In this document: piece after piece, positions 22,580 through 63,113 of the stretch
Numbering within the stretch: the first letter of the stretch is position 1
Layout of the letters: every line of letters begins with the position of its first letter
Source of the DNA: a bacterium
GTDB lineage: Bacteria; JAJVIF01
Length of the DNA: 64,000 bases
Reading direction: 5' to 3'
Assembly (NCBI GenBank): GCA_022072165.1
Contig: JAJVIF010000002.1
Coordinates: 619,854 to 683,853, forward strand
The notes under the pieces: model-generated
Told to the model about the DNA's origin: nothing
Databases searched by the model: none
The model's input: the letters and a program-made list of their open reading frames with translations, nothing else
Translations under genes and position numbers: made by a program

Positions 22580-23776
22580 ATGGCCCGGAAGTCTGCCCCT
22601 CCCGCATATCCCTCCATCGGAGGGGTCCACTCCGACAGCACCCTGCTGGCGCGAGCGCTGGCCGCGAAGGGGCTCATTAATCCCCTCACGAGGCAGCCCT
22701 TCAGTGAAGCCCTGATCTTCGGCATCGCCGGCGGTCTGGGCGGGATGTACTTTGTGTGGGAAATGTGCGGCATGGTGATCCTGACTGTCGGCGGTCGGTG
22801 GTGGTGCCATGACAACGTGAAGTTTCTGCAGGGGGGCGCAGACCGGCTGGGGGTGGGGCTGCACCTGTCGCAGCCGGGAGGTCGCAAAGCGGCCCAGGCG
22901 GCTCTGGATCAGGGGCTCGCTACAGGTGGACCGGTCTTCTGCTGGACCGATCAGGCCTCGTTGCCGTATCACCACCTCCCGGAGACCTATCGCAAGTTCC
23001 TCATTCACACGATCGCCGTCACAGACCAGGATTCCGACGGGTCGTATCTGGTGGATGACCGGGGCGAGGGGCTGTACCGCATCAGCGCGGATGACCTGGC
23101 CGCAGCGCGTCAGACGCAGCCGTACATGAAGGCCCGCCTCGGTACGCTGAGCCTGCCGGACCAGCCGGTGGACGTGCGGGACGCGGTGTACGCGGGGATG
23201 CGGGCGATGGCGAAGGAGGGGCTGCATCCGGAGATTCGGAACTTCGGTGTCCCCGCCTTTGAAAAGTGGGCCGAGCTCATCATTCATCCCAAGGACAAAA
23301 AGGGTTGGCCGACGGTAATGGCCACGGACATCGCCCTCTGGAGCGCGCTCTGCTGGACCTACGCCAGCATCGCGACCGACACCGGCGGCGGGCTGATGCG
23401 TCCGCTCTACGCCACGTTCCTCACAGAAGCGGGGAAACAACTCAAGGACAAAGCGCTGGTGTCGTGCGCCGACGAAGCGCTGGCGCTGGGGGCACGCTGG
23501 GATCGCATCGCAGATCTTGCATTGCCGGCGGGGAAAGCCCCGTTTAAGCAGGCCCGGTCGCTCCTCGACAAGCGGGAAGCGGCGCGCCACCAGGGGCCTG
23601 CAGGAGAGAAAGCGCTGGCGAAGGCCGAAGCCGATCTCACGACTTTGCAGCAGCAGGCTCCGTCGTTTCCTGCGGGCTACCGGGAGACTCTGTTCCCCGC
23701 GATGCACGCAGAACTCGCCGTCGTGGCGGCAGCGGAACGGGCATTCATGGAACGGATGGCGGATCTGGCAGGCTAA
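22580..23776 (+). CDS. BtrH N-terminal/DUF4872-like protein
   Basis: A 398-residue cytosolic protein. Residues 12-60 (GGVHSDSTLLARALAA, then FSEALIFGIAGGLGG) follow the BtrH_N layout, in which a His-Cys pair and a GLGGGLGF loop sit in a papain-like acyltransferase. BtrH transfers an acyl side chain in butirosin biosynthesis. Here the nucleophilic Cys position after the His is Ser. The C-terminal 150 residues are helical with a Lys/Ala/Glu coiled-coil region near 330-370, as in DUF4872. No biosynthetic cluster surrounds it, so the role is unknown. Confidence 0.65.
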   Translation: MARKSAPPAYPSIGGVHSDSTLLARALAAKGLINPLTRQPFSEALIFGIAGGLGGMYFVWEMCGMVILTVGGRWWCHDNVKFLQGGADRLGVGLHLSQPGGRKAAQAALDQGLATGGPVFCWTDQASLPYHHLPETYRKFLIHTIAVTDQDSDGSYLVDDRGEGLYRISADDLAAARQTQPYMKARLGTLSLPDQPVDVRDAVYAGMRAMAKEGLHPEIRNFGVPAFEKWAELIIHPKDKKGWPTVMATDIALWSALCWTYASIATDTGGGLMRPLYATFLTEAGKQLKDKALVSCADEALALGARWDRIADLALPAGKAPFKQARSLLDKREAARHQGPAGEKALAKAEADLTTLQQQAPSFPAGYRETLFPAMHAELAVVAAAERAFMERMADLAG

Positions 23777-27521: not shown

Positions 27522-27530
27522 GGGTGCCCC

Positions 27531-29285: not shown

Positions 29286-29293
29286 AAAGAGCG

Positions 29294-29299
29294 AGTATA
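29294..29299 (-). promoter_or_regulatory. -10 box before the first Asp-Pro lipoprotein gene
   Basis: On the minus strand TATACT is followed by 8 nt and the ATG, giving a leaderless or near-leaderless mRNA. A GGAGG lies upstream of the box, too far to serve as ribosome site. Confidence 0.45.
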
Positions 29300-29310
29300 G
29301 CCTCCAGCCC

Positions 29311-32702: not shown

Positions 32703-33980
32703 CTACTTCGGCCAGGGCTCATAGCGATAGAGGAGCGGCACCAGCTGCTGATAGCGCTGGACTTCTTCGGGAGGCAGGACCAGATCGTCACCGGGGAGCG
32801 GCGTGTACTTCCAGGGGTCCACCACGGTCCAGAGCGCGCCGGCATCATCGACCGTCAACGACTCCAGCGATGGCGTGAAATAGGGTTCGCCCGATGGCCC
32901 CGGCAGCGAGAGTTGCGCTGTATCCACCGCGCTGAAGGTGCCATCGGCAGCGAGGCGAACACGGTGAATCCGTTGCAGATTGCGATCGAGCACAAACAGC
33001 GCTGAGCCATCGGGGAGCAGATACAGGCCGCACAGACTCATAGGCGTACAGGCGGGTGGCAGGAACTGGACCCGCAGGGTCGGCTCCGCTGCGCCTTCCA
33101 GCTGCACCCGATGAAAGATCGGCAGACGTCCCTGCCAGGCTGATGGCACCAGCGGACTCGCGGGCCAGGGCTCCTCGGGACCAAACCAGAGCTCCGCCTG
33201 AATTGCAGGCTGTCCCTGACGCGCCCTCGCCCCGCCAATAGCCACACCCTCGAATCCCCGATTCGGCTTCATCCCCGCGAGGGGGATCGCTGGTCGCGCA
33301 GCATGACCCTCCCAGGGGGACTCCCATCCTGCATCCCAGACGGGCTGGACCATTGTCCGCAGGAAGGGCTCCACTGAGGTGAGTCGGGTGGCGGTGGCGA
33401 AGGGGGCATCGAACTCGACCCACACCAGTTCGTTGCGGACCTCGTGCGCCCGGGGGTCCTTGGCCAGTTCCGCTGCGGACGCATTGCCTTCCACAGAGAG
33501 GAGCGCAGTCGGCATGCCACCCGGTGTTGCGGGAGCAGCCCAGGCAGTTTCCTCGAGGTCGAGCTTGGCTGTGCCGACGCCAAAGCGGTCGCGCAACGTG
33601 TCGGGAATCGCGATGGGCGCGAGAGTGATCCAGCCATCGCCGGTCGTGCCGGTGTCGGGACGCTGCGACTCGCGGATTTCGATCCGGTGGAGCGCCCCGA
33701 TGTCATCACAACTAAAGAAAAGAAGGGCGTCATCGGCGGATCGTTCGACGAAGGTGAAGCCCGAGGTCTGCTCGGTCCGACGGCCATCCGCCAGGAGCCA
33801 GACCGGGTACCGGGGCGACAGCGGGAGGGTGACCTGACGCACCGGGATCGCGGTCGACTCCCCCGGGGGGGCTGCCGGGAGAGTCCGGACGGGCGCGGCC
33901 TGGGCGGCAGGCGGACGCGCACAGCCGGCCAGCAGCAGGCTGGCGACGCATCCGGTTCCGATCAGGAGGAGTCCGCGCAT
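32703..33980 (-). CDS. lipoprotein with a phytase/esterase-like propeller appearance
   Basis: A 425-residue lipoprotein (lipobox LLLAGC). NRGFEGVAIGG near the middle, and the strand/turn pattern DGSALFVLDRNLQRIHRVRL and SLESLTVDDAGALWTVVDP, are reminiscent of the esterase-like-activity-of-phytase (PF13449) beta-propeller family. That is a similarity of motifs, not proof. I take the ATG before the signal sequence; a frame 97 codons longer runs antisense into the next gene. It is convergent with the NTF2-like gene, 13 bases away. Confidence 0.65.
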   Translation of the reverse strand: MRGLLLIGTGCVASLLLAGCARPPAAQAAPVRTLPAAPPGESTAIPVRQVTLPLSPRYPVWLLADGRRTEQTSGFTFVERSADDALLFFSCDDIGALHRIEIRESQRPDTGTTGDGWITLAPIAIPDTLRDRFGVGTAKLDLEETAWAAPATPGGMPTALLSVEGNASAAELAKDPRAHEVRNELVWVEFDAPFATATRLTSVEPFLRTMVQPVWDAGWESPWEGHAARPAIPLAGMKPNRGFEGVAIGGARARQGQPAIQAELWFGPEEPWPASPLVPSAWQGRLPIFHRVQLEGAAEPTLRVQFLPPACTPMSLCGLYLLPDGSALFVLDRNLQRIHRVRLAADGTFSAVDTAQLSLPGPSGEPYFTPSLESLTVDDAGALWTVVDPWKYTPLPGDDLVLPPEEVQRYQQLVPLLYRYEPWPK

Positions 33981-33987
33981 GGGACTA

Positions 33988-33993
33988 AGGGTA
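33988..33993 (-). promoter_or_regulatory. -10 box of a predicted leaderless promoter for the 32703-33980 gene
   Basis: On the minus strand TACCCT is followed by 7 nt and the ATG; no Shine-Dalgarno sequence is present. Confidence 0.4.
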
Positions 33994-34138
33994 CGTCGAA
34001 CAGCGCTTCCGCGGGAATCACCGGTGGGTAAAGGGGGATTGCGAATGATGTAGGGGCACTTTCCGACGGTATAGCGGTTCACCCTACCCGGCCCTGGCGC
34101 CGGGCGGGAGCGTGTCGCACAGCGGTGGAGGTGCCCCC

Positions 34139-36859
34139 ATGACCAACAACCGACCCTACGGGTGGTATCAGGCAGGATGCGTCCTGCTGCTGCTCGGGCT
34201 CCTGGGGCTGGCAGCGAGTTGTCAGGGGGCAGGACCATCGACCCCGACCCATCCCGGGCAGGGGCCAGCACCGTCGGAGATCCCGGCAGGTCTGGTGGTG
34301 GACTATGCCGATGCCACTGGCAATGTCGCGGGGCAGGGGGTCCTGGGACTCTTCCGCTTCACTCTGGATCCGGCGAGCCTGAGCGCGACTCTCGAGCCGG
34401 TCCAGCGCTCCACCGCCGCACTGGGTGACCCTTACACCGCCGACATCACCGGGTACCTGGCGGGGAGTCCCTGCTCCGACTGCTTCAAAGTGAGTGGGGT
34501 CGGGCTGACTCCTGAAAAGTATGTCTATGCCGACTACACCCTGCGACATCCCTTTCCGCTGCCGGCTTCCAATCCGCCGCAGTTTGGGGATCGCCTCGAT
34601 TTGCATGTGTATGACGTCCGGGGCATTTTCCTGAAGCCCGACCCGAAGGATCCCCGGGGGATGCACAGCTTTGTCGACCTCGCCTCCGCCGGCGGCACCC
34701 CCGAAACGTTGCTGATCGACAACTCCGGTTTCCTGGCGGGCATCACCATCGATGGCATCACCACGGCGTTCGATGCCTACACCGACACGTTCTACCCGAC
34801 GGAAGCGACCGCGCATCCCTACGTCATGATGCGGGCCGATACCCGGCAGACGAATTTCGATCCGGGTCATCAGAACGGCTGGAGCGACCTGCGGAACCCC
34901 ATTGGGTACAACGTCTTCCCGCAGGGGGGTGGCCCCTACACCCAGCGGGTGATCTTTACCGCCGAACCGGGAGAGTCGGTGGAGTACCTGGTGGTCCTGG
35001 CCGCGAACTTCGCCGCCGCGTCCCAGGGACCAGGCCTGGCGCTGGGCAAGCGGGGCAATCCGGTCTACTACCTGCCCTGGGCCAACATGAAATCCCCCTG
35101 GCGGGTGAAAGTGGAAGAGACATCCAACACCCTGGAGGCGGGCAACAGCGCGACCGATGTCCGCCTGCAGGTGACGGTGTACGACTGGCAGCATCACCTG
35201 GGGGTCATGACGCTGGTCGATGAATTCCGGACCGAGAATCAGTCCCGGAGCTCCCTGCGCCGCCCCAGCCAGGTGCTGGATGTCGAGGGCTCGATTCCGG
35301 GGGTGACCCCAATGTCCGAAGTCAATTCCGGCTTCCTCGCCGGTGTCGGCACCCCGCAGGATCCCCTGATCTACGAAGTGATCTTCCCCAACACACTGGG
35401 GGCAGACGAGGGGACCTATCTTGGCGCGCTTGCGATCCGCGACAACTACGAAGCGAGCAGCAAGCCCGAAGGGGTCGGGCGCGGATTCACGCCCTTCACC
35501 ATCGATGACTACTCCACCTACTTCACCTTCGCTGTGCAGGTCGCGCCGGAAGCGAGTGGTGGCACGACCTTTGGCGACACTGCTACGGTGTACAACAACA
35601 ACTCGACTCCGCCTTCGACGCTGGAGAGTGTGACGGTGGATCCGGGGACCAGCGGCAACCTGGGCATCTTCTCCAAGGTCGGGCTCCCCAACGAGTACCT
35701 CTTTGCGGTGAGCGAAGTCTCAGGCTTCCTGGATCAGGAGAAGACCACGCAGGTGGCCGTCTCAGCCTCCACCAATGGTGGGCTGAACTGGGGCCAGGCG
35801 CAGTTTGCTCCCGCGCTGAGCGGCAATGGTCCACAGATGCAGCCGGAGCTGATGGTCATCGAAGACTCCACCACCCCGGGGTTCGCCTGGGTCCACATGG
35901 TGGCAGCGGCAGAGGTGAACGGCGACTACAACGTCTATTACTCCAGGAGTGGCAACCTGGGGACCACCTGGTCGCCGCCGATACAGGTCCATAGCTCCGC
36001 TAACGGACAGCAGACCCAGCCGCAACTCGCGGTGAATCCGCTCAACTCCAAGGAAGTCCTGGTGAGCATGGAAGAGATTCGCGGCAACTCCCGCATCCGG
36101 GTCTGTCGCGACGAGAACGGCGATGGCATCTTTGAAGCCGAGTCGACCTTCGACCCCGCCTCCCTGCTCGATGCAACCAAGCGACGCCGCACTCCCTTTG
36201 TCGCCTTCCCGCCCGCCAGCGCCGGCGAGCCGAACCGGGTCGCCCTGATCTGGGTCCGCTCGAATCATCTGGGGCCGGATGTCATGGCCTCGATCTCCAC
36301 CACCGGCTTCGCCGGACTCGGTGGGGCGATGCAGGCCGTGAGTGCCGAGGGACTGACCGATGTCGCTGTGATGCCGACCGCAGTCTGGGTGAACTCGGGG
36401 CTGGGCCTCGATCTGCTGGTGGCCTACAACCAGCAGGAGCTCCTCTCTGTCAACGGCACGGGCGGGACCACCATCCAGATCAACGCCAGCAAGGTGATGG
36501 TGGCGCGACGTCGCGAAGGCCAGCCGATGTTTGATCAGCCGGTCCAGGTCTCCGATGTCACCGATGTCACCCAGGCGAGTATGCCGGTCCTGGCCCGGGT
36601 CCATGACGGCACCAACCCGCCGGTGGGGCTGGTCTGGCACGACAACCGGAATCGGTTCACGTCGGGGAACGACATCTTCTATACCGTCAGCACCGACCGG
36701 GGGGCGACCTGGGCTCCGGATCGCCTGGTGGTCGGGGCCACCGGACATCAGCGCTACCCCTCTCTGGCCTACAACCATCAGGGGCGGTTCCGGATCATGT
36801 ATCGCGACGAGAATCGTGAACCGCGCAATATGATCCGCCTGCTGCGGGAGAGCAACTAA
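34139..36859 (+). CDS. large lipoprotein with sialidase-like Asp-box repeats
   Basis: A 906-residue lipoprotein (lipobox LAASC). The N-terminal half (TLRHPFPLP, DRLDLHVYDVRG) is a distant member of the HPF family at 10092 and 19319. The C-terminal 400 residues contain at least three Asp-box-like repeats: STNGGLNWG, SRSGNLGTTWS and STDRGATWA. Together with YPSLAYN and QPQLAVN repeats these indicate a sialidase/exo-alpha-sialidase-like beta-propeller. No catalytic Arg triad or Tyr/Glu pair can be claimed, so it may bind rather than hydrolyse glycans. GGAGG lies 8 nt before the ATG. It ends 9 bases before the convergent nth stop. Confidence 0.78.
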   Translation: MTNNRPYGWYQAGCVLLLLGLLGLAASCQGAGPSTPTHPGQGPAPSEIPAGLVVDYADATGNVAGQGVLGLFRFTLDPASLSATLEPVQRSTAALGDPYTADITGYLAGSPCSDCFKVSGVGLTPEKYVYADYTLRHPFPLPASNPPQFGDRLDLHVYDVRGIFLKPDPKDPRGMHSFVDLASAGGTPETLLIDNSGFLAGITIDGITTAFDAYTDTFYPTEATAHPYVMMRADTRQTNFDPGHQNGWSDLRNPIGYNVFPQGGGPYTQRVIFTAEPGESVEYLVVLAANFAAASQGPGLALGKRGNPVYYLPWANMKSPWRVKVEETSNTLEAGNSATDVRLQVTVYDWQHHLGVMTLVDEFRTENQSRSSLRRPSQVLDVEGSIPGVTPMSEVNSGFLAGVGTPQDPLIYEVIFPNTLGADEGTYLGALAIRDNYEASSKPEGVGRGFTPFTIDDYSTYFTFAVQVAPEASGGTTFGDTATVYNNNSTPPSTLESVTVDPGTSGNLGIFSKVGLPNEYLFAVSEVSGFLDQEKTTQVAVSASTNGGLNWGQAQFAPALSGNGPQMQPELMVIEDSTTPGFAWVHMVAAAEVNGDYNVYYSRSGNLGTTWSPPIQVHSSANGQQTQPQLAVNPLNSKEVLVSMEEIRGNSRIRVCRDENGDGIFEAESTFDPASLLDATKRRRTPFVAFPPASAGEPNRVALIWVRSNHLGPDVMASISTTGFAGLGGAMQAVSAEGLTDVAVMPTAVWVNSGLGLDLLVAYNQQELLSVNGTGGTTIQINASKVMVARRREGQPMFDQPVQVSDVTDVTQASMPVLARVHDGTNPPVGLVWHDNRNRFTSGNDIFYTVSTDRGATWAPDRLVVGATGHQRYPSLAYNHQGRFRIMYRDENREPRNMIRLLRESN

Positions 36860-36868
36860 GCCCGCCAA

Positions 36869-45407: not shown

Positions 45408-45619
45408 TCGGTCCGGGATGTCTGCTTAAGGCTGGAACTTCCCTGCGGGGCAGGGCGTCTAAGAGACCAACGCGCTGCCGGAATCTCGGGTGCGCGTCGT
45501 CGCAGTATTCCACCCGCCCCGTACAATGCACCCGGGGATTCGCCCATTGTCGGCGTGTCTGTCAGCGGTTCCCGGCAGACCCCGACCCATCCTCAGTCTG
45601 GCTTCAGAGGAGCAACACC

Positions 45620-48600
45620 ATGGGGTTTGAACCACGCGAGCGGATGCGGTCGTCGCAGGCCGCACTGATTTACAAAGGCATCGATGAGATGCAGGGTGGC
45701 GAAGCGACCCTCAAGATTTTCAAGGACCCCTATGGCAGCGACAAGGCGTTCGCCCATGCCATTGATCAGATTGCGACGCCCCTGAAGTACATCCATAACG
45801 AGCACATTGTCCGGGTGCTGGAGATCGGGATGAAGTCGGACCGTCTGGCGGTCGCGACCGAGATCATGCCCCTGAGTCTGGGGGATGTCCTCCATGCCAA
45901 GGAGCCGCTGGAGCTGCAGCGAGCGCTGGGGGTCATGCTGAAAGTGCTCGATGGCCTGGAGGCTGGCTATGCCGAAGGGCTGCCGCAGCATCTGGACCTG
46001 AAGCCCAACAACATTCTGGTGGACCAGACCCTTGAGCAGGTGAAAGTCGGCGACTGGTATCTCGCATCCGGGATGGCAGCGGTGAGCGGCGATCTGAGGA
46101 AGAGCTGGGAGGATCCGCGGTATCTTGCGCCGGAGCAGATTCACGGCATCGGGGAGGTCTCGGAAGCGACCGACCTCTACCAGTGCGGCCTGTTGCTCTA
46201 TCACGTCCTGACCGGTTTCCCGCTGTTCCAGCATTCTGATGAAGAACAGATTCGCTATCAGCAGGTCTACACCGACCCGCAAAAGCTGATCGACTACTAC
46301 ACCCAGATTCCGCAGGTCGTGCGGGAGATTCTGCTCACCGCCCTCGCGAAGGATCCCGGGAAGCGCTTTCAGTCGGTGACACAGATGCGGGAAGCACTGG
46401 CCTATGCACTGGCGGCGTCATCGTTCAAGAAGGTCCTGCCGGCCGACTCACTGGTGGGGCAGATCATTGGAGATCGCTGGCAGCTGGTGGAAGAGCTGGG
46501 ACCCGGTCCCTTCGCCCGGACCTACAAAGGCCTGGAAGTCGGTCGGGACACGCCAGTCACAGTCAAAGTCTGGGACAAGGGGATCTCGGCGGAGGAAGGC
46601 TTTGTCCGGGCGATCAACAAGGACCTCTATTCCCAGACCACCCTGCAGCATCCTCACATCCCGGGGCTCAATGGGTCGGGCTGGCATCAGAGTCAGTTTT
46701 ATACGGTGAAACCATTTTTGCCCCTGAGCCTGCGCGAGGTTCTGACCCAGGAAGGACGGCTGGCACCGGAGCAGGCCCTCCGGGTGGTCCGGAAGGTCCT
46801 GGGCATCCTCGAGTACCTGGTCCGCAAGGGGGGCTTCACGGCGCATCAGCAACTCGCGCCGGAGCATATTCTGGTCCATGCCTCGGGGGATGATTTCTGG
46901 CTGACCGACTTCCGGCTGGAAGAGACCTCCCGCTTTATCCGGGAGCGCTACGGCTTGCCACTGTCGACCTGGCGGTCGATGGCACCGGAGCTCTGGCAGG
47001 ACGAAGTGTCGGCGATTGGGCCGGCGACGGACATCTATAGCCTCGGGTGTCTGCTGTTCGAACTGACGACTGGTGAGCCGCTATTCCCTGGCGAGGATGT
47101 GAAAGCGGTCGAGCAGTTGCATCTGACGGGAGATCCGCGACAGGCCATCGATGGCCATCAGGAAATCCCCCTCGTCTTCCACGACCTGCTGACCAAAATG
47201 CTGGCGCGGGACCCCCGGGAGCGCTACCAGACCTACCAGGAGTTGCTGGATCACATCGTGAGCCTGGTGGGCGAGAGCGAACGTGGCACCGGCCTGCAGC
47301 TCATCGATGCCGGCTCGACCGTCAAGGGCAAGTTCCTCCTCGAAGAGCGGCTCCCGCTCTACGATGACCCCCGGGGTGCTACGACCTATACCGGGGTCCA
47401 CAATCAGACCGAGACGCCGGTCATGCTCTGGTTTTACAAGCGCACCCGGACCACCGAACTGGAAAAGCGCTTTCAGAAGGTGATGGAAGAGGCGCAGACC
47501 TGCGACCACCCCAGCATCCTGCGGGTGCTCGACTTCGGCCACGACAAGGGGGCGTTCTTCTATGTCTCCGAGTTGCGCGCCACGACCCTTGCCACGCATC
47601 TCGAAGCGCACGGTCCTTTCTTCGTGGACCTCGCCTGCGAGCTCGCGAAACAGATCGCCGCGGCCTGCCAGGTCCTGGAGCAGCGCGGACGGGACTGCCA
47701 CGGTTCCCTGTCGCCCCGCTTTTTGATGCTCCAGGAAAAGCCCGAGTTGCGGGTGAAGCTGGCGGGTCTCGAATGGCGGACCCTGAGCACCGGCGGGACC
47801 GACCAGAACGAAGCCGCCTATCTCGCGCCGGAACAGATTACGGGTCTGGGGAAAATCGGCCCCGCGGTGGATCAGTACGCTCTCGGCCATCTCCTGGTGA
47901 CCCTCTGCACCGGGACGCCGCTCCTGAGTGGCGAGGCGGCGACCATTCATCAGCAACATGTGTTCGGCGATCTCGCGGGTCAACTGGCGACCCGGGAAGA
48001 GATCCCGGCGGGCCTGCGGCGCATTATCAGCAAGCTCATCGAACGTGATGCCACGGCCCGGTACTCCGACTGGCCCGAGTTCCTCGATGATCTTGATGAC
48101 TTCCTCGCGGCATACACGGGCGCTGACACGCCGGCTGAAGCGCTGAACTTCCTGGTCGGATCGGAGACCTATCAGACTCTCATTGGACGGGAAGAGGACC
48201 GGGCGACCTATGTCATGCGGATGCCCAACTCCTCCACCGGAATCCGGGGCATCTTCGCACTGGCGCAGGGAGTCGGCGATCCGGCGGATGCACTGGTGGC
48301 GCAGAACAAGGTCGTGGAAGAGCTGGAACGGACCTTCAGCCCATCGCGACTGCAGCAGCTCGACTTCATCGATAACCCCATGACCCTTATCGAGGAGGGA
48401 ATCACCCGCTGCAACGGCGTGGTGAATCAGGAAGCGTTCCGGCTGAACCGCATCGGCAAGCTGGGCGCGGAACTGCTGCTGGGGATGGTGACCCGGGACC
48501 GGCTCTATCTCGGACGGGTCGGGGGGGCGTTTGCCTATGTCTTCCGGGCGCAGTCGATCCGGTCGTTCCTGCGGAAGCCTGTGGAGCAGAAAATCCTCGG

Positions 48601-49447
48601 ACGGGAGATGAGCATCAAGTTCGATTCCACCGAGCGGCACCTGCGTCCGGGCGACACCCTGGTCCTGGGGACCGGCAATCTCTCCCGGATGCTGGCGGAC
48701 ATCGAGATGCGGAACATCGCGGTCTCGACGGTGGATTCGCAGGAAGCGGCGGAGCGGATTGTCAGCCTCGCCTCTTCCCGGGCCAAGGGCCAGCCGCAGT
48801 ATCAGGTGGGTATCGCAGTGCTGGTCGCGCAGTTCGGCGATGTCACCGCCGAGCATGTCTTCCGGGCACGACGGGGATTCCAGTCGGGTCCGGTGATTCA
48901 TGTCTACAGCAACCGGGCGCAGTCGTTCCTGCAGGAAGGGAATCTGGAAGCGGCGGAGGCGGAGTTGCGGAAGGCGGCGGAAATCGCGCCGGAAAACTTC
49001 ACGGTCAACTTCAAGCTCGCCCAGATTCTGCTCCGCAAGGGGCAGGCGGATCAGGCCTGGGACTTCTGCCAGCGCGCCCTACAGCTGATGCCGAACTTCG
49101 TGGAAGGCCACATCCTCCTGGGAGACATCCACTACTTCCGGCATCGACGTCGCGAGGCCCTGGACGAGTACATGTATGCGGTCCATCAGGGCGGGACCAA
49201 TCCCCATTCCTGGATGGCGCTGGGGCGGTACTACTACCAGGAAGCGCTGTATGGCGATGCCGCCGGGGCGTTCGCCAAGGCGGTGAGCCTGGAGCCGGGC
49301 AACGACGAGGCGAAGGCGCAGCTGGACCTGGCCGAAAAGCGCAAACGGAGTCTGGGCGGGATGCTCTCAGAGCAGGGAGCGAAGACCCGACAACAGCTGT
49401 TGCAGCCGTTTAATCGTCCTGCGCCGAAGAAGAAGCCCCGACGTTAG
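45620..49447 (+). CDS. three kinase-fold domains + PP2C-like domain + TPRs (novel architecture)
   Basis: A 1,275-residue soluble protein. Kinase fold 1 (about 1-275) keeps Lys in ATLKIF, HLDLKPNN (Asp near 125) and GDWY (Asp 144), but lacks a Gly-rich loop. Fold 2 (286-560) keeps the Lys in VTVKVW and TDFR (Asp430) but has HQQLAPEH (409) in place of the catalytic loop. Fold 3 (571-835) has Trp for the Lys, CHGSLSPRF (693) for the catalytic loop and LAGLEW for DFG, so it is dead. Residues 855-1090 look like PP2C/SpoIIE phosphatases, with every expected metal Asp replaced. Four TPRs (about 1097-1240) and a basic tail end it. Ribosome site GAGGAG; TACAAT near 45519. The 3' end overlaps a convergent gene. 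Confidence 0.88.
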   Translation: MGFEPRERMRSSQAALIYKGIDEMQGGEATLKIFKDPYGSDKAFAHAIDQIATPLKYIHNEHIVRVLEIGMKSDRLAVATEIMPLSLGDVLHAKEPLELQRALGVMLKVLDGLEAGYAEGLPQHLDLKPNNILVDQTLEQVKVGDWYLASGMAAVSGDLRKSWEDPRYLAPEQIHGIGEVSEATDLYQCGLLLYHVLTGFPLFQHSDEEQIRYQQVYTDPQKLIDYYTQIPQVVREILLTALAKDPGKRFQSVTQMREALAYALAASSFKKVLPADSLVGQIIGDRWQLVEELGPGPFARTYKGLEVGRDTPVTVKVWDKGISAEEGFVRAINKDLYSQTTLQHPHIPGLNGSGWHQSQFYTVKPFLPLSLREVLTQEGRLAPEQALRVVRKVLGILEYLVRKGGFTAHQQLAPEHILVHASGDDFWLTDFRLEETSRFIRERYGLPLSTWRSMAPELWQDEVSAIGPATDIYSLGCLLFELTTGEPLFPGEDVKAVEQLHLTGDPRQAIDGHQEIPLVFHDLLTKMLARDPRERYQTYQELLDHIVSLVGESERGTGLQLIDAGSTVKGKFLLEERLPLYDDPRGATTYTGVHNQTETPVMLWFYKRTRTTELEKRFQKVMEEAQTCDHPSILRVLDFGHDKGAFFYVSELRATTLATHLEAHGPFFVDLACELAKQIAAACQVLEQRGRDCHGSLSPRFLMLQEKPELRVKLAGLEWRTLSTGGTDQNEAAYLAPEQITGLGKIGPAVDQYALGHLLVTLCTGTPLLSGEAATIHQQHVFGDLAGQLATREEIPAGLRRIISKLIERDATARYSDWPEFLDDLDDFLAAYTGADTPAEALNFLVGSETYQTLIGREEDRATYVMRMPNSSTGIRGIFALAQGVGDPADALVAQNKVVEELERTFSPSRLQQLDFIDNPMTLIEEGITRCNGVVNQEAFRLNRIGKLGAELLLGMVTRDRLYLGRVGGAFAYVFRAQSIRSFLRKPVEQKILGREMSIKFDSTERHLRPGDTLVLGTGNLSRMLADIEMRNIAVSTVDSQEAAERIVSLASSRAKGQPQYQVGIAVLVAQFGDVTAEHVFRARRGFQSGPVIHVYSNRAQSFLQEGNLEAAEAELRKAAEIAPENFTVNFKLAQILLRKGQADQAWDFCQRALQLMPNFVEGHILLGDIHYFRHRRREALDEYMYAVHQGGTNPHSWMALGRYYYQEALYGDAAGAFAKAVSLEPGNDEAKAQLDLAEKRKRSLGGMLSEQGAKTRQQLLQPFNRPAPKKKPRR

Positions 49448-54490: not shown

Positions 54491-55360
54491 ATGGCAACCG
54501 CCCCGCTCTTGGTCCGTGCCGGTACCCTGCCCGGTCGGTTGGTGGTCATCCTCCAGGATGGAGCTGTCCTTGGCATCTGTCGGAGGGCGGTGGAGGATCC
54601 CTTCACAGGCCGGGTCCTGGGCTTCGCGTTTGAAGATGACGAGTGGTATGAAGGTCCGAAGTTCGTCCCGCAACGCGCCATTGCTGGCTATGGCGAGAAC
54701 GCCCTCCTGCTGGACGACCGCTCCCAGTTACTGCAACTGCATCAGGCGGCGGAGATCCGGCTGATTCTCAAGCAACGGGAAACCCTGCTCGAGAAGCATG
54801 TCATGACCGAAGGGGGTCGATACCTCGGGGAGATCTTCGATTACGACTTCGACCGCGATGGCACGACGGTCCATTACTACCTGCATCGCTATCTCGCCGG
54901 CGAGCCCGGGTGCGCCCTGGTCCCCGCCGAGCGGACCCGCCGGGTCGGCAAGAGCCTCGTACTGGTCGCCGAAGGGCAACTAATCCCCACCGAAGTCCAG
55001 CCTGGCGTCCGGGCCCCCTGGGAAGCGGTACGGGCTCCCCGGATTCCCCCGACCCTCAAGACCCTGGAGCAGCTCCGCCCACCCCGTCCGGCCGCCGAGA
55101 TCACGACCCCGGAACCAGCGGCAGCAGACTCCCTCACCGAGCGCTTCCAGCAGCGGCAGTACGCCTATCTGATCGGGCGTCGCTGCGAGCGGGACATCCG
55201 GGGGGATGATGGCACCCTGGTAATCAGCCAAGGTCAGTTCATCGATGAGCAGGTACTGGCGCTCGCCCAGGCGACAGGCAAATTCATGGAACTCGCAATT
55301 TCCAGCCGGTCCACGGGTGTCAATACGGCGCAGCCTGCCGAAAGCTCCCGGGTCGCGTAA
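54491..55360 (+). CDS. PRC-barrel domain protein
   Basis: A 289-residue cytosolic protein with PRC-barrel character: ILQDGAVLGICRRAVEDPFTGRVLGF and KFVPQRAIAGYGENALLLDD form one barrel, KHVMTEGGRYLGEIFDYDFD a second. The C-terminal 80 residues (YLIGRRCERDIRGDDGTLVISQGQFIDEQVL) recall the DNA-directed or flagellar PRC-like tails. PRC-barrels bind RNA, ribosomal proteins or each other. RBS AAAGGAG. It lies directly before the STAS-receiver group, with a strong terminator after it. Confidence 0.75.
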   Translation: MATAPLLVRAGTLPGRLVVILQDGAVLGICRRAVEDPFTGRVLGFAFEDDEWYEGPKFVPQRAIAGYGENALLLDDRSQLLQLHQAAEIRLILKQRETLLEKHVMTEGGRYLGEIFDYDFDRDGTTVHYYLHRYLAGEPGCALVPAERTRRVGKSLVLVAEGQLIPTEVQPGVRAPWEAVRAPRIPPTLKTLEQLRPPRPAAEITTPEPAAADSLTERFQQRQYAYLIGRRCERDIRGDDGTLVISQGQFIDEQVLALAQATGKFMELAISSRSTGVNTAQPAESSRVA

Positions 55361-55389: not shown

Positions 55390-55421
55390 CACCCCCGGAT
55401 GGCAGTCCGGGGGTGTTTATT
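55390..55421 (+). terminator. intrinsic terminator after the PRC-barrel gene
   Basis: A 10-bp perfect stem (CACCCCCGGA / TCCGGGGGTG), 6-nt loop, then TTTATT. Confidence 0.9.
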
Positions 55422-55439
55422 GAAGGTTCACATGTCGGC

Positions 55440-55476
55440 CAAGCAGCAAAGGAAGAAGAAAGAGGAAGAAGAAGAG
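55440..55476. repeat. 37-nt purine-rich tract
   Basis: A run of A and G with few C, between the terminator and the end of the 55480-56286 gene. On the minus strand, in the direction of that gene, it is pyrimidine-rich and could aid Rho-dependent termination. It also reads as MSAKQQRKKKEEEEE on the plus strand, which I do not regard as a gene. Confidence 0.5.
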
Positions 55477-55479
55477 CGC

Positions 55480-56286
55480 TTAGGCCGAACGGACGAGGTT
55501 ACTCTCGACCTGCTGGTGGGTGTCCAGGGCCTTGGCGGCCGAGATGATGGACCGCAGGCGGGTGGAGGTTTCATACGGGTTGAGGGGGAAGCGGAGCATC
55601 TCGTCGGCCCCGTAGCGGACCAGGTAGTCGGCATCGGGGAAGCGGGCTTCCGGCGCCACGACCAGAATGGGGAGGGTCTTGTTCTCCACGGAGGTGCGGC
55701 AGCCGAGGATCATGTGCTCCAGGACCGGCCGGGGAAGCGACACATCGAGCAGCATGACGTGGAAGCGCTTTGTCCGCAGCCAGGTGGAGGCTTCGGCATG
55801 ATCGTGCGCGGTGGTCAATTTGTAGTTGGGAGCATCGTGCAGTTTGTGGAGCGCTTCGCGGAGACTCTCGGCGATCTCCAGCGACTCCTCGATGATGAGG
55901 AGATTCTCCCGGGGCAGTGGCAGGGTGCCGCCATCGCTCCGTCCCTGGCCAACCCCAAAGAACTTCAGGGCCTGGGCTTCGGTGTCGAAGGTGGGAATGA
56001 AGATCTCGACCCGGGCCAGCTTGAAGACTTTCAGCACCGGGGGCTGCAGCTCGCAGAACGCCAGCGAGACACCCCGTCGATGGGCTTCCCGGAACGTCGC
56101 GATGATGGCGGAAAGTCCGGCGGAGTTGATGTAGTGGACCCCGCGCATATTGATGACAATGCCCCGGGGATTCCGCTCCACATAGCGAAAGATCTCGGGC
56201 ACCGGGCTGGTGAGGGCTTCGGTGGCGGTCCCGGCGAGATTCACAACGAGGACGTCCTGCTCGGGACGGAACGTGGCCTGCAACAT
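55480..56286 (-). CDS. STAS-receiver fusion protein, paralogue A
   Basis: A 268-residue protein. Residues 1-115 are a STAS domain like anti-sigma factor antagonists: YINSAGLSAIIATFREA carries the Ser normally phosphorylated (classically DSSGL). Residues 128-250 have a receiver layout: ENLLIIEESLEIAESL at the acidic end, LLDVSLP with the phospho-Asp. The invariant receiver Lys is Phe (EMLRFP). So the STAS part could be switched while the receiver may be unphosphorylated or atypical. Divergent from its two paralogues, sharing a 195-base region. Start is the ATG of MLQATF, matching paralogue B. Confidence 0.85.
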   Translation of the reverse strand: MLQATFRPEQDVLVVNLAGTATEALTSPVPEIFRYVERNPRGIVINMRGVHYINSAGLSAIIATFREAHRRGVSLAFCELQPPVLKVFKLARVEIFIPTFDTEAQALKFFGVGQGRSDGGTLPLPRENLLIIEESLEIAESLREALHKLHDAPNYKLTTAHDHAEASTWLRTKRFHVMLLDVSLPRPVLEHMILGCRTSVENKTLPILVVAPEARFPDADYLVRYGADEMLRFPLNPYETSTRLRSIISAAKALDTHQQVESNLVRSA

Positions 56287-56481
56287 GGGTACTGCTCCAA
56301 TCGAGGCCTGCGAGGATCCAGCGGGGCCAGCCGAACTGCCCCGGTACAGAAAATCATTATACTGAGAGTCCAGCTCCCGCCAGTGGCGCCGGCGTCAGTT
56401 TGAGCCGGGGGGCCAGATACCTTCGGGGTCTGCCCCCATCGCTGCCATGCGGGTGGAATGCACTCCGAGGGACACCGAATC

Positions 56482-57324
56482 ATGCTGCAGGCGACCTATC
56501 GTAAAGAGGGCGACATCACTGTCGTGGACCTGAACGGGACCGCGACCGAAGCGCTGCAGGGGCCAATCCCGGAGGTGATGGCGGTCCTGCGGCGCGGCGA
56601 CCGCAAGGTGGTCGTGAACATGGGCCAGGTGAGCTATGTGAACTCCGCCGGGCTCTCCTCTTTCATCGACACTTTTCGCCAGGCCCTCCGCCATGATGCC
56701 CAGATGGTCTTCTGCTGCCTGGTGCCGAATGTCCTGAAGGTCTTCAAGCTCGCCCGGGTGGAGATTTTCTTCGCGGTCTTCGAGACCGAACCCCAGGCGC
56801 TACAGCATTTCGGGGTCTCCGCCAAATCGACCACCCCTGGTCCGCCCCCCCGGGAAAACATCCTCGCCGTGGAAAAAGCGCTCCCGGTGGATGAGCAGCT
56901 GCGCAAGATATTCCAGGACAACAAGGAAAGCTCAAACTACAAGGTCACGCCGGTCTCCTCGACCGCCGAGGCCCTGAACTGGCTGCGGACCAAGCCGTTC
57001 CACCTGGTCCTGCTCGATGCCAGCTTCAGCTACGCGGAAGTCGAGGAGTTTCTCAAAGAGGTCCGGACCGACCCCTCACTGAACAAGATTCCGGTGCTGG
57101 TCGCTGCGGGGGAGACCAAGCTTGCCGATGCCGACTACTTCATCCGCAACGGGGCCGATGACATCCTGCGTCATCCCTTCAATCGCTACGAAGCGTCCGC
57201 CCGTATTCGCAACGCCATCACCCTGCTGTACGCCCTCCGCAAAGAAGATGCGCAGGTCGACCGGATGCGGACCCGTGCGGGAGTCACCAGCTCGACCGCG
57301 CCGAACTACACCAGTCTCCGGTAG
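56482..57324 (+). CDS. STAS-receiver fusion protein, paralogue B
   Basis: A 280-residue paralogue of A and C. STAS: MLQATYRKEGDITVVDLNGTA, then YVNSAGLSSFIDTFRQA. Receiver: ENILAVEKALPVDEQL (the usual acidic pair reduced to Glu-Lys), LLDASFS with the Asp, and DDILRHPF with His where Lys belongs. The stretch VLKVFKLARVEIFFAVF between the domains is nearly identical in all three. I use the ATG preceded by GAGGGAC at 9 nt; an in-frame ATG eight codons upstream is possible. Followed by paralogue C after 18 bases. Confidence 0.85.
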   Translation: MLQATYRKEGDITVVDLNGTATEALQGPIPEVMAVLRRGDRKVVVNMGQVSYVNSAGLSSFIDTFRQALRHDAQMVFCCLVPNVLKVFKLARVEIFFAVFETEPQALQHFGVSAKSTTPGPPPRENILAVEKALPVDEQLRKIFQDNKESSNYKVTPVSSTAEALNWLRTKPFHLVLLDASFSYAEVEEFLKEVRTDPSLNKIPVLVAAGETKLADADYFIRNGADDILRHPFNRYEASARIRNAITLLYALRKEDAQVDRMRTRAGVTSSTAPNYTSLR

Positions 57325-57342: not shown

Positions 57343-58185
57343 ATGCTCCGTGCGACCCTGAAGCATGAGCAGGACATCGCCATCCTTCAGTACAGCGGCG
57401 ACCTGACGGAAGAAACCGGCGGGATGTTGCCCGGATTGCAGGATGCCCTGGCCCGGGGCGAACGGAAGATCATCCTGGACCTCGCGGAAGTCCGGTATGT
57501 GAACTCCGCGGGCCTCTCAACGTTCGTCGACAGCTATAAGGCCGGCCTGCGGGCCGACGCCAAAATGGCTTTATGCCAGTTACAGCCTGCGGTGCTGAAG
57601 GTCTTCAAGCTCGCCCGCGTGGAAATCTTCATCCCCATCTATGACACCCTCGGGCAGGCGTTCAAGCACTTTGGCGTGATGCAGGCCGCCGCCGCCGAGG
57701 GGCCGCCCCGGGAGCAGCTCCTGGTCATCGAACCGGGGCTCACCATCGGTGATGAAATCCAGCGCCTCCTCGCCGCCCAGAAGGAGCAACTCAACTACCG
57801 GCTATCGCGGGTCCCCAATGTGGTGGAGGCGGTGCGCTTTCTGGAAGTCCGGACCACTCACGTCATCCTGCTCGACATCGAGATTCCCCGGGCCGATGCT
57901 GAGCGCTTTATCGGCCAGGTGAAGTCGAATACGCAGCAGCGACATATCCCCATCATCATCGTGACCCGGGATCCCCAGATTCCCGATGCGGACTTCCTGG
58001 TCCGGAACGGTGCGGATGACATGCTCCGGGTGCCGCTGGTGGCCTATGAGGTCAGCGCCCGGCTGCGGGTCGCCCTCGCCCTGCACTATGCGATGCAGAA
58101 GGATGATTCCAACGTCTCCCGCCTGTTTGAAACACGGCTGACAGCGGGGAAGTACGAAGGCCCCAAGTACCCCACGCTGCGCTAA
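57343..58185 (+). CDS. STAS-receiver fusion protein, paralogue C
   Basis: A 280-residue paralogue. STAS: YVNSAGLSTFVDSYKAG keeps the Ser. Receiver: EQLLVIEPGLTIGDEI (acidic pair lost), LLDIEIP with the Asp, and DDMLRVPL with Val in place of Lys. Good ribosome site GGGGAGAG. The 3' end overlaps the convergent DUF2344 gene by four bases. The three proteins conserve the phosphorylatable Ser while varying receiver active-site residues, which suggests different inputs to one partner, for instance a shared anti-sigma factor or kinase not found in the window. Confidence 0.85.
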   Translation: MLRATLKHEQDIAILQYSGDLTEETGGMLPGLQDALARGERKIILDLAEVRYVNSAGLSTFVDSYKAGLRADAKMALCQLQPAVLKVFKLARVEIFIPIYDTLGQAFKHFGVMQAAAAEGPPREQLLVIEPGLTIGDEIQRLLAAQKEQLNYRLSRVPNVVEAVRFLEVRTTHVILLDIEIPRADAERFIGQVKSNTQQRHIPIIIVTRDPQIPDADFLVRNGADDMLRVPLVAYEVSARLRVALALHYAMQKDDSNVSRLFETRLTAGKYEGPKYPTLR

Positions 58186-59148: not shown

Positions 59149-60198
59149 CTAGTTGAATTCCTGCTTACGGAAGGTCAGGTACGCACAGAGCAGAATGACA
59201 CTGAGGTAGACCACCGGCAGCGCCAGAATCGCCGGGTCCGCGGTAATCGGAAATGCCCGACTCACAAAGAAGCGGGTGAGGGGATCCTCGATGAGGAAGT
59301 TCACGGAGTAGAGTCCCACCGGACGCTGGGGTGGGAGGAGGAGGAAGACCCAGTCCACCTCATCCCCCGGACGGCGCATGACACTGGTGAGGATGAATTT
59401 CAGCGTCCCGGTCCCGGCATTGTTCGAGGCGAACATCAGCACGATCGACAGAAAGCCAGCCACCAGCGCCCAGGTCCGGGTCGAGAGGAAGAGGGTGAGG
59501 GTCGCGAGAATCATCGGCACCAGTGCACCGACGAGGAACGCCGGCAGGATGTTGAGGCGGACTCCGAGTCCGAAGTAGGCCAGCAGCGCGGCATCGACTG
59601 CCCACACGACAAAGGCGTAGCAGGCCAGCGCGGCGTAGCAGCCCCCCAGCTTCCCGAAGAAGATCATCATGCGGTCGAGGGGCTTGCTGATGAGGGTGTA
59701 GATAGAGCGACGTTCCAGTTCATTGGCGAGGAGGCCCATGCCCGTGAAGATGGCGAGGAGGCTCCCAAAGAAGACAAAGAGCGCCTGGAGGAAAATCGAT
59801 GTCAGCAGCGTGACACCTTCCTTCAGGTCTCGGGCGGCGGCAGCGGCATCGCCGGGGGAGGGGACATTCTGGGGGGTGTCGCTGAAGAGATAGAGCCCCG
59901 CCACCAGCTCGACGCCACTCACTCCCTCCTGCTGCATATCCGGGTAGGCCTTGAGGAACATCAGCAGCACGGTCCCGATACTCCCCAGAATCGCGCAGAT
60001 CGTGATGATCCAGTAGAGCCGGGTCCGGAGGATGTCGAGGCAGGTATGCCGGGTGAGGTACCACCCGGCGCGACCATTACGCAGCAGGGTCGTGACCCAC
60101 AGGAGCAGGACGATCGTGCCGAGGATCAGGGCGATCCACTGCAGACGCTCGGTCCCGATGAGATAGGTGGGATCAACGGCGAAGTCCCGGGGTTTCAT
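59149..60198 (-). CDS. ABC-2 type exporter permease subunit
   Basis: A 349-residue inner-membrane protein with six or seven helices. The ISKPLDRMMIFFGKLGG loop is the family's cytoplasmic KP-L-x-R element, and SIFLQALFVFFGSLLAIFTG and AFLVGALVPMILATLTLF are helices. A periplasmic loop of about 60 residues between helices 2 and 3 (LFSDTPQNVPSPGDAAAAARD) is distinctive. It overlaps the ATPase gene by four bases. Confidence 0.9.
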   Translation of the reverse strand: MKPRDFAVDPTYLIGTERLQWIALILGTIVLLLWVTTLLRNGRAGWYLTRHTCLDILRTRLYWIITICAILGSIGTVLLMFLKAYPDMQQEGVSGVELVAGLYLFSDTPQNVPSPGDAAAAARDLKEGVTLLTSIFLQALFVFFGSLLAIFTGMGLLANELERRSIYTLISKPLDRMMIFFGKLGGCYAALACYAFVVWAVDAALLAYFGLGVRLNILPAFLVGALVPMILATLTLFLSTRTWALVAGFLSIVLMFASNNAGTGTLKFILTSVMRRPGDEVDWVFLLLPPQRPVGLYSVNFLIEDPLTRFFVSRAFPITADPAILALPVVYLSVILLCAYLTFRKQEFN

Positions 60199-61211
60199 GC
60201 CGCCACCTCCGGCGAGGTGAGGTCCTCGTTCAGGTCTTCCTTGCCCCGGAGCTGTTGCAGCAGCAGTTCAGGCGGAACACCGCCCGAAGCGGCGATCAGG
60301 GACATAAAGCGGTCTTCCAGACGGATGGTCTGGGGGTGGACGCTGTAGAGGTCCGCGCCGGCGACCACCAGGGTCCGGATCAGTTCAGGTGCTGTCAGTC
60401 CCGGGAGGAGTTCCAGGCGAACCCGGCCATCAGGCAGGGGCTCGATGGACTCCACCATGGGCGCGACCGCGTCGCTCACACTCTGGGACCAGTGTCCCAC
60501 CGCGACATCCAGTACCTGCTGCGGGGCCCGGGTGAGTTCTTCGACTGTTTCGAGCGCCAGGACGTTGCCCTTGTAGATCACGCCGACCCGATGACAGAGA
60601 TCTTCGATGTCTTCAAGAATGTGGGTGTTGAGGAACACCGTATGTCCCCGCTGGTGGTAAGCGCGGATGAGTTCCTTTATCTGCCGTCGCCCGACTGGGT
60701 CGAGCCCGGTGGAAGGCTCGTCGAGGATGATGAGTTCTGGCTCCGCCAGGATGGCCTGTCCGATGCCGACCCGTTGCAGCATCCCCTTGGAATAGGTCCG
60801 GAGGCGTCGGCGGGCAGCGGTCATCCCGAGCCCGACCTCTTCGATAACCACCGGGATCCGGCGCTGGATGTCGGCGTTTGACATCCCATACAGCCCCCCG
60901 TAGAACTCCAGCAGCTCCAGCGCATTGAAGCGATCGTAGAAGTAAGGCGCTTCTGGGAGGTACCCGATCTGCCGTCGCACGCCAAGGTCAGTGACCGGGC
61001 GATCGAGGATGGTGAGGTCGCCGCTGGTGGGAAAGATGATGTTCAGCAGACATTTGAGGAGGGTTGTTTTTCCGCTGCCATTGGGTCCCAGAAAGCCGAA
61101 GATTTCGCCACGCGGGATTTCGAGGGTCACCTGATTCAGCGCCACGACCGCCGGGCTCCGGAGACCGGTGCGATAGGTCTTGACCAGCGCATGCGTAGTG
61201 ACCGCCGACAT
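60195..61211 (-). CDS. ABC-2 type exporter ATPase subunit
   Basis: A 338-residue ATPase with Walker A GPNGSGKTTLLK, Q-loop in QIGYLPEAPYFYDRF, signature YSKGMLQRV, Walker B LIILDEPSTGLDP and switch His in FLNTHILED. The start is the ATG of MSAVTTHALVKTY; the longer frame runs into the upstream terminator. The C-terminal 90 residues after the core are variable. It and the permease likely form a dimeric exporter of unknown cargo. Confidence 0.92.
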   Translation of the reverse strand: MSAVTTHALVKTYRTGLRSPAVVALNQVTLEIPRGEIFGFLGPNGSGKTTLLKCLLNIIFPTSGDLTILDRPVTDLGVRRQIGYLPEAPYFYDRFNALELLEFYGGLYGMSNADIQRRIPVVIEEVGLGMTAARRRLRTYSKGMLQRVGIGQAILAEPELIILDEPSTGLDPVGRRQIKELIRAYHQRGHTVFLNTHILEDIEDLCHRVGVIYKGNVLALETVEELTRAPQQVLDVAVGHWSQSVSDAVAPMVESIEPLPDGRVRLELLPGLTAPELIRTLVVAGADLYSVHPQTIRLEDRFMSLIAASGGVPPELLLQQLRGKEDLNEDLTSPEVAA

Positions 61212-61265
61212 GTGGCGGGGGAGGATAGCGTACCTGTCAGCCCAACGGCGTAGCTCCCGCGCTCC

Positions 61266-61307
61266 ATAAAAGCACCGCACCCCTCCTGACAGTGCCAGGA
61301 GGGGTGC
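61266..61307 (-). terminator. intrinsic terminator of the HerA-like gene
   Basis: On the minus strand a 12-bp perfect stem (GCACCCCTCCTG / CAGGAGGGGTGC) with a 7-nt loop, then GGTGCTTTTATGG. It separates the HerA-like gene from the ABC operon. Confidence 0.8.
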
Positions 61308-61337
61308 AGGTAGTGCGCGCATAAGCGATGGTGAGCG

Positions 61338-63113
61338 CTAGAAGTCGATCTCGCGACCTTCGGACCGGGCGAAGGCGGTCTCGGCGCCCTTGCTGTCCTG
61401 ATCCCGGGTCCCTTCCAGGACTTCGTCTTCGCCGGGGATGTAGAGGTCGCCGGGGACACAGGCCGGGAGGGGGAATTTGAAGAAGAGGGGCTGGGTGAAC
61501 TTCGCGTGCTTCAGGAGGAGCTCACCACGAGGCACCGTACTGAGGCGCTGCTTCAGCTCATCGGAGAGCCAGCCGTAGATCTCGTCCTTGAGTTCCGCGA
61601 ACCCGGTGCGGCCATACATGAGGGTGGAGGAGTTGTCGACAATCTGCTTGTCGACTTCCGAGGCGAACTGCTCGATGCCGAAGAGGGTGACACCCAGTGA
61701 ACGACCGCGGGCCGCCAGGTGGATGAGGCCGGTCTTGATCTGATTGCCGGAGGTGTCGTGCCGGGGAGCGAACTTGTTGAGCTCATCGACGAACACGATG
61801 ATGTTGTCGATGTTGACTTCCCCGCGACGGGTGCTCAGCAGATGCTCCAGCTTGCGCAGCACCTTGGTGAAGACGAGGCGCTGCCCACGCTCATTGATGG
61901 ACTGGATGTCGATCACCCAGACATCGCCGTTCTTGAGATTTTGGATCGGGATGTCAATGGGCTTCGCGGTGCCGGTCGCGATGAGGCCATCGTAGAACCC
62001 CGGCAAACCGCTGAGGTTTTTGACGGCCTTGTGGAAGATGTGCTTGGCGTGGCCATGCCAGTTGGTGTGCCGGGAGTCGTGGGTAGCACGCCGCTCTTCA
62101 GCGAGCCAGGTCATCAGCCCGTCGTAGCTGTCGATCCCCTGCTTTTCGAGGACCGCCTGGATATCGACCCAGACCGCTTCCACCGCGTCATCCCAGGCGC
62201 TGCGGTCGAAGAGGACGTTGACATCGTCCTGGACATCGGTGATGGACCAGACGAAGGGCTCCACGGAGCCATCGAGGCGCAGGGACTTCGCACGGCTGGC
62301 GGCTTTGGAGTCGTAGGGCGCAAAGACCCGGACGCTGTGGAACGGCTCCGGGCTGATGCCCATGAGGTCGTACATCTTGCGGCTCTTGATCGCCAGCGGG
62401 GAGTCTTCCCAGAGCGCGGGATTCGGCTTGTCGAAGTAGAGGAGGTCCTTGCCCTTCACGTTGAAGACGATGACCGCGACCTTGCGTCCCCGCTGCTCGG
62501 AGCAGTAGTGGAAGATCGACTTGAGGATGAACTCCACCACGGAGGTTTTCGTCGCGAGACCGGAGATACCGGAGACGTTGAGGTGCGCCCCTTCCGGCCC
62601 CAGCAGGAAGGACTCGTCGATCAGCAACGGGGTCATTTCCCCATCGCCATTTTCGAACACCCCGATCGGAATCCCCCGGTCATCGCCGGCGTAGGAATCC
62701 ATGCCCAGGGCATGCTCGATGCCTGACGGGGAGGCGAAGTAGACCTCCGAGCGGGAAACGGGCTGGACACGTCCGGAGGTGTTATTGATCACCTGGCACT
62801 TCACCAGCGTGATTTCCTCGGGCTCTGTCGGCGGCTTGGCTTCGGGGATGCCGAAGTCGTGGGACAAAAAGTCGTTCACCACGTCGGGCACATTCAGAAT
62901 CGCCTGCATATTCACGACCACGCCGAAGGTGGTGATCCCCTTCTCATCGACGCAGGCCACCATATTCCCCAGCTGGCACTTTTCGCAGTGGCGCGAAAGC
63001 CAGAAATAAAAGTTGGCGGTGGTGTTGGGGTACTGCGAAGTGGAGACGGTCTGGCCAATAACCCCCTCAAGCAGGTTGAGATAGTTGGCGTTTCGTTCGT
63101 CGATAAGCACCAT
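61338..63113 (-). CDS. HerA/FtsK-superfamily ATPase
   Basis: A 591-residue DUF87-type hexameric motor. Walker A is GISGLATKTS (182-191, Lys189), with the Gly-x-Ser-Gly form typical of HerA. Walker B is NIIVFVDELNKF. The arginine-finger region may be LMYGRTGFAEL. The first 170 residues contain a HAS-barrel-like start and an unusual RHCEKCQ pair (Cys43, Cys46). HerA normally works with the nuclease NurA in DNA-end resection or in phage-defence pairs; no nuclease gene adjoins. A ribosome site AAGGAGT lies 14 nt upstream, rather far. Monocistronic by the flanking terminator. Confidence 0.88.
   Translation of the reverse strand: MVLIDERNANYLNLLEGVIGQTVSTSQYPNTTANFYFWLSRHCEKCQLGNMVACVDEKGITTFGVVVNMQAILNVPDVVNDFLSHDFGIPEAKPPTEPEEITLVKCQVINNTSGRVQPVSRSEVYFASPSGIEHALGMDSYAGDDRGIPIGVFENGDGEMTPLLIDESFLLGPEGAHLNVSGISGLATKTSVVEFILKSIFHYCSEQRGRKVAVIVFNVKGKDLLYFDKPNPALWEDSPLAIKSRKMYDLMGISPEPFHSVRVFAPYDSKAASRAKSLRLDGSVEPFVWSITDVQDDVNVLFDRSAWDDAVEAVWVDIQAVLEKQGIDSYDGLMTWLAEERRATHDSRHTNWHGHAKHIFHKAVKNLSGLPGFYDGLIATGTAKPIDIPIQNLKNGDVWVIDIQSINERGQRLVFTKVLRKLEHLLSTRRGEVNIDNIIVFVDELNKFAPRHDTSGNQIKTGLIHLAARGRSLGVTLFGIEQFASEVDKQIVDNSSTLMYGRTGFAELKDEIYGWLSDELKQRLSTVPRGELLLKHAKFTQPLFFKFPLPACVPGDLYIPGEDEVLEGTRDQDSKGAETAFARSEGREIDF

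Follow-up and report, generated by a model that had tools for sequence, protein, structure and literature searches.

The window, the 64,000-nucleotide stretch of bacterial DNA analysed here, carries a gene for a 1275-residue protein that is probably a soluble scaffold for signalling, for the most part non-catalytic; it consists of three degenerate kinase domains (K1, K2 and K3), a pseudophosphatase of the PP2C fold and an arm of TPRs. It is best read as a scaffold, or as an allosteric regulator, that acts on Ser/Thr phosphorylation in the cell and that two candidate phyla inherited from their common ancestor. The order and number of domains proposed in an earlier note on this DNA stand, and no family of this order is named in Pfam or NCBIfam. 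That note missed the degeneracy of the chain, in which K1 is damaged and catalytic residues are missing from K2, K3 and the PP2C domain.

The open reading frame and its coordinates (Table 1) are exact as read from the window. The gene is real, with an ATG preceded by an AGAGGAG site, 1275 residues and orthologues at 43–48% identity in the three other genomes of the home phylum, that is, the phylum of the window's genome (four genomes, G000–G003). These orthologues are full-length except in G003, where the gene is cut at its 5' end. The frame stays open for another 98 codons upstream, but a start there was rejected, as both the ATG with its ribosome-binding site and the start position common to the orthologues favour 45620. 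An antisense ORF at 47081–48901 (606 aa) was also discarded: its apparent homologues in G001 and G002 are likewise mere shadows on the strand opposite the same gene. Pfam recognizes three Pkinase stretches (4.6e-70 across the whole protein) and TPRs, with no match within residues 850–1095, and a hydropathy scan detected no transmembrane segment.

Table 1. Coordinates of the gene and its parts in the window
Feature	Position	Strand	Basis
Ribosome-binding site AGAGGAG, 7 nt before the ATG at 45620	45606..45612	+	Direct reading
Whole gene, 1275 aa	45620..49447	+	ORF, orthologues, hydropathy scan
K1 (residues 1–268), kinase fold	45620..46423	+	Pfam, orthologue alignment, model, residue table
K2 (residues 285–555), pseudokinase	46472..47284	+	Pfam, orthologue alignment, residue table
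K3 (residues 569–835), fully degenerate pseudokinase	47324..48124	+	Pfam, orthologue alignment, residue table
PP2C-fold pseudophosphatase (residues 849–1074)	48164..48841	+	PDB profile, NCBIfam, residue table, hhalign
Four TPRs and start of capping helix (residues 1093–1240)	48896..49339	+	Pfam, AlphaFold, Foldseek
C-terminal tail with basic end RPAPKKKPRR	49340..49444	+	Translation

The three consecutive Hanks-type kinase folds seen by the earlier note are indeed present: the bilobal protein kinase fold is found by model in K1 and by profile in K2 and K3, and the APE-like motifs YLAPEQ, SMAPELW and YLAPEQ are all in place. The AlphaFold model of K1 is an ordered fold that Foldseek pairs with PknB-like structures (E 9.8e-16, TM to target 0.82). 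The similarity to PknB_PASTA_kin (NF033483) amounts to 295 bits against a curated cut-off of 450, and the Pfam scan revealed no PASTA repeats. The four TPRs are recovered by Pfam and, together with a capping helix, by AlphaFold and Foldseek. When residues 560–1275 were modelled with four sequences, the prediction was confident for the TPRs only; the K3–PP2C portion is poor (pLDDT about 30–60), so the fold assignments of K3 and the PP2C domain rest on sequence profiles.

The K1-K2-K3-PP2C-TPR architecture occurs in all four home-phylum genomes, whose records include a lake-sediment MAG, the isolate AUK107 and one entry filed as Planctomycetota. In a sister phylum, 7 of 10 genomes harbour a homologue of about 1000–1100 residues (one truncated at a contig end) that comprises two degenerate kinases, KA and KB, a degenerate PP2C domain and TPRs. 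Two profiles of the pseudo-PP2C domain were run, the first against 385 genomes, mostly of different families, and the second, a richer one, against 384, largely the same; outside the two phyla, roughly 375 bacterial genomes representing about 250 families gave no homologue, and the next matches reach at most 84 bits and resemble canonical PP2Cs. The probable multi-pseudoenzyme scaffold was thus found by these searches in two small candidate phyla only. An RpoB tree places the two phyla as sisters among the sampled groups (support 95/92), and its very long branches for the outgroup rows G028 and G031, which arise because the longest ORF of the locus, probably not RpoB, was taken, have no effect on the groups of interest. 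The simplest reading has a single origin before the two phyla split and a loss in family f158. In the kinase tree each kinase position is monophyletic and separate from ordinary kinases; this holds for K1–K3 as for KA and KB, and the joining between groups is weak.

The kinase domains of the family were aligned with 15 ordinary control kinases, four of them from the window's genome. The full set of β3 Lys, αC Glu, HRD Asp, catalytic-loop Asn and DFG Asp is present in all 15 controls, which were picked by an HRD-like motif, so that their HRD Asp and Asn (not their Lys, Glu and DFG) are partly there by construction; the set is incomplete in K1, K2 and K3. The αC Glu is absent from 24 of 24 tabulated family domains and the HRD Asp from 22 of them, or from 23 of 25 when the untabulated K1 of the 5'-cut G003 gene (Ala) is added, whereas both residues are kept in 15/15 controls.

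K1 of the window and of G002 provides a counterpoint to the scaffold view. It retains the Lys-Asp-Asn-Asp set, in the window as Lys32, H124-x-D126, K128, Asn131 and Asp145, and because of these residues some residual activity may be possible in the window species and in G002. An unlikely alternative goes further and takes K1 in these two for a working atypical kinase, regulated in cis by K2, K3 and the pseudo-PP2C domain, whose activity was lost later in the two other orthologues. The kept residues and the ordered PknB-like prediction for K1 would agree with it. Against it, K1 has no glycine loop (R-S-A in the window and G002), no αC Glu in any orthologue in which the position is readable and DWY at DFG wherever readable; the glycine loop and Glu fall outside the readable part in G003. 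Moreover, the HRD Asp has become Ala in two of the four orthologues, G001 (HLAIKPNN) and G003 (HLAIKPTN), yet the whole protein is under strong purifying selection. Given these same losses, the earlier proposal that the first kinase acts finds no support as a conserved function; the signalling hub of which it formed part survives as a likely scaffold role.

The catalytic Asp is missing from K2 and K3 in all four orthologues. K2 retains nucleotide-binding features, namely a GxG loop, K316 and D430, and has lost the HRD Asp (Gln or Ala), the Asn (His416), the canonical DFG (DFR) and the αC Glu. In K3 the β3 Lys is an invariant Trp604, HRD reads HGS, DFG reads GLE and nearly all other catalytic residues are gone. 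The equivalents of K72 and the DFG Asp persist in K2 or KB of 11/11 members, and the Asn in all KB domains; consistently in both phyla, one domain has been emptied (K3, KA) and another has held on to its nucleotide-binding residues (K2, KB). That K2 and KB perform some other nucleotide chemistry instead of phosphorylation, such as the AMP transfer or glutamylation of SelO and SidJ, is quite improbable: these domains alone keep the side of the pocket that serves nucleotide and metal, consistently across two phyla, but the missing general base has no conserved substitute, and K2 and KB differ at the Asn position and in the loop.

The PP2C-like region reported by the earlier note is supported by several profile comparisons. 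NCBIfam Stp1_PP2C_phos matches two stretches, one of them residues 875–981, with 41 bits (E 1.3e-10) where the cut-off is 230. In the PDB, a five-row profile of the domain picks out tPphA, a cyanobacterial phosphatase (E about 1e-6), with the TAB1 structure 2irm at E 0.026 in the same search. When compared by hhalign with 20 canonical PP2Cs, the home-phylum rows reach a probability of 99.4% and the full set of 11 members one of 99.7%, as against less than 1% for kinase controls (0.2% in one). A SpoIIE identity was rejected, the match being weak (E 0.016) and the Stp1 model far better. None of the four metal-binding Asp of the RxxNED, DGMGG, SDG and DN motifs is kept in the window protein, where DGMGG has become QGVG, SDG TGN and DN VG. 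Across the 11 members only one of 44 metal-ligand positions is kept, in G391, and none in the home phylum; as the PP2C controls were selected by two of the four motifs, their residues in those two columns follow from the selection, which does not apply to the other two columns or to the PDB match. The flap region of the home-phylum domain is also shorter by about 24 residues. The PP2C fold is borne out by profile, but the domain is, by loss of its metal ligands, a pseudophosphatase.

No stops or frameshifts were found in the 11 members read. In the close pairs G001/G003 and G387/G388, pN/pS is about 0.08–0.22 in every domain, a ratio that is indicative only, as dS is saturated, and in the home phylum no other domain has as high a proportion of invariant columns as PP2C (35%). 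Judged from these sequence comparisons, every domain is under strong purifying selection and not in decay. The loss of catalytic residues from most enzymatic domains could suggest a decaying, functionless relic of an active kinase–phosphatase fusion, a notion strongly disfavoured by the intact frames, the low pN/pS of every domain and the retention of the gene in 11 of 14 genomes of two phyla. The chain combines retained folds, lost catalytic residues and purifying selection, as expected of pseudoenzymes, in K1 only in part.

As a mainly non-catalytic scaffold, the protein would form a cytosolic platform whose TPRs and pseudo domains bind clients, probably genuine kinases or phosphorylated substrates. 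The TPR arm may dock a client or an upstream protein, and the pseudo domains would hold or allosterically set the cell's genuine Hanks kinases or phosphorylated substrates, a role modelled on known pseudokinases and the PP2C-like TAB1, which act in this manner. K2, or KB in the sister phylum, could serve as an ATP-sensitive conformational switch through nucleotide binding. Genuine Hanks kinases are present in each home-phylum genome, with four clear ones in that of the window; genuine kinases of the latter genome lie at G000:C1:258105, 1003978 and 1170561 and at 15168–17312 of the window. Genomes G000–G003 gave no PP2C_2 match and, in a curated Stp1 search, no Stp1-type PP2C other than the protein described here; gene absence from MAGs of 82–99% completeness is suggestive but falls short of proof. 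Genomes of the sister phylum contain few kinase genes and, in most cases, a single PP2C gene. With no Stp1-type PP2C fold detected in the home phylum except the dead one, a tentative extension of the scaffold reading can be entertained: the regulator would consist wholly of pseudoenzymes, and the lineage's PP2C, joined to three dead kinases, would have become a reader or shield of phosphoproteins that controls genuine kinases and involves no enzymatic reversal.

The gene lies by itself: about 210 bases separate 45620 from the end of an RND pump gene upstream, and a convergent ORF overlaps the 3' end. No kinase, PP2C or prophage genes were recognized beside 45620–49447. A conserved operon was considered and rejected, since neighbours differ in nearly every genome compared; the gene neighbourhood not being conserved, no client can be read from context. 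A defence role was likewise set aside: the PADLOC matches to PD-T4-6 and Mad6 reflect generic kinase similarity and no defence neighbours were recognized.

Several other loci were recorded in passing. Downstream in the window, two tandem genes (56458–57324 and 57343–58185, +) each encode a STAS domain with a response-regulator receiver, an unusual partner-switching pair, and are directly preceded by genes for two adjoining proteins of 289 and 334 aa with no Pfam match (54491–55360 and 55399–56403, +). The minus-strand block 59149–63113 encodes an ABC-2 permease, an ABC ATPase and a protein of 591 aa that has no match in Pfam, in an order resembling Gld-type ABC loci; in G002 a homologous ATPase–permease pair (L038:10617-12517) adjoins the orthologue. 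At 22580–23776 (+) a BtrH_N and DUF4872 protein lies beside an AHSA1-domain gene, possibly a small natural-product or peptide-processing locus, and long ORFs without convincing Pfam match, including ones of 965, 584 and 605 aa, occupy 10092–12989, 25767–29348 and 32703–36868. In the window's genome, L034:4286-7177 (+), directly 3' of a genuine kinase gene, encodes a second possibly degenerate kinase, of 963 aa, with a weak, partial Pkinase match (25 bits) and WD40-like repeats. In one sister-phylum family (L065, L066 and L067) a conserved protein of 262–274 aa with a hydrophobic N-terminus is encoded downstream of the family gene, and in G305 and G387 genes for a membrane-fusion protein and MacB-like permeases lie upstream of it.

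Seven families of bacterial Ser/Thr pseudokinases are listed in a 2025 review: ActPs1–3 (with MviN, which acts as a scaffold), GLW, CP1, DYD and DLHK; GLW, DYD and ActPs3 are membrane-associated (PMC12599244). The text of that review makes no mention of tandem pseudokinases, PP2C or TPR. These families share with the present protein a Hanks-type fold with degraded VAIK, HRD or DFG, but differ in their motif sets and, in the membrane-associated families, in location. In GLW pseudokinases GLW replaces HRD and a transmembrane segment follows, whereas the corresponding motifs here are HLD in K1, HQQ in K2 and HGS in K3, with no such segment. DYD pseudokinases have Arg at the β3 Lys and DYD, whereas K1 and K2 keep the Lys, with DWY and DFR. 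CP1 pseudokinases are fused to a COG3899 ATPase, a domain that Pfam and NCBIfam scans did not find in the 1275-aa protein. ActPs1–3 are set apart by deletions and constraints specific to each family.

TAB1 and PHLPP2 are eukaryotic PP2C-type pseudophosphatases, and TAB1 regulates the kinase TAK1 through binding (PMC8622459, PMC12002173). They resemble the present domain in having a PP2C fold without a working metal site, but are separate proteins not fused to kinases, and 2irm indicates no close sequence kinship. TAB1 and MviN are, by analogy, functional precedents and not demonstrated relatives. The kinase-kinase-phosphatase module KKP also combines Hanks kinases with a PP2C in one functional unit, two kinases and a phosphatase (PMC11341870); PfkA, PfkB and PfpC are, however, separate, active proteins encoded by one operon in prophages, in contrast to a single, mostly dead polypeptide with no recognized prophage genes around it. 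A survey of bacterial PP2Cs reports fusions to kinase and TPR modules, as phosphatases with added domains; three kinase domains with a metal-less PP2C do not appear in the passages found on such fusions (PMC12088040). In the open-access literature no paper on a bacterial PP2C pseudophosphatase was found, and the pseudokinase papers found do not describe bacterial tandem pseudokinases with a PP2C fold.

Work on PP2C-type pseudophosphatases concerns eukaryotes, and the literature searched yielded no description of one in bacteria. The split between emptied K3/KA and K2/KB with their nucleotide-binding residues makes a direct test possible. How the home phylum, with a sole, dead Stp1-type PP2C detected, undoes the work of its kinases becomes a question in its own right; the answer may lie in SpoIIE-type phosphatases, of which each home-phylum genome has 6–8 (6 in that of the window). 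As the degenerate chain has been kept by selection in two sister phyla, the finding suggests that bacteria too build regulators from non-catalytic kinase and phosphatase surfaces.
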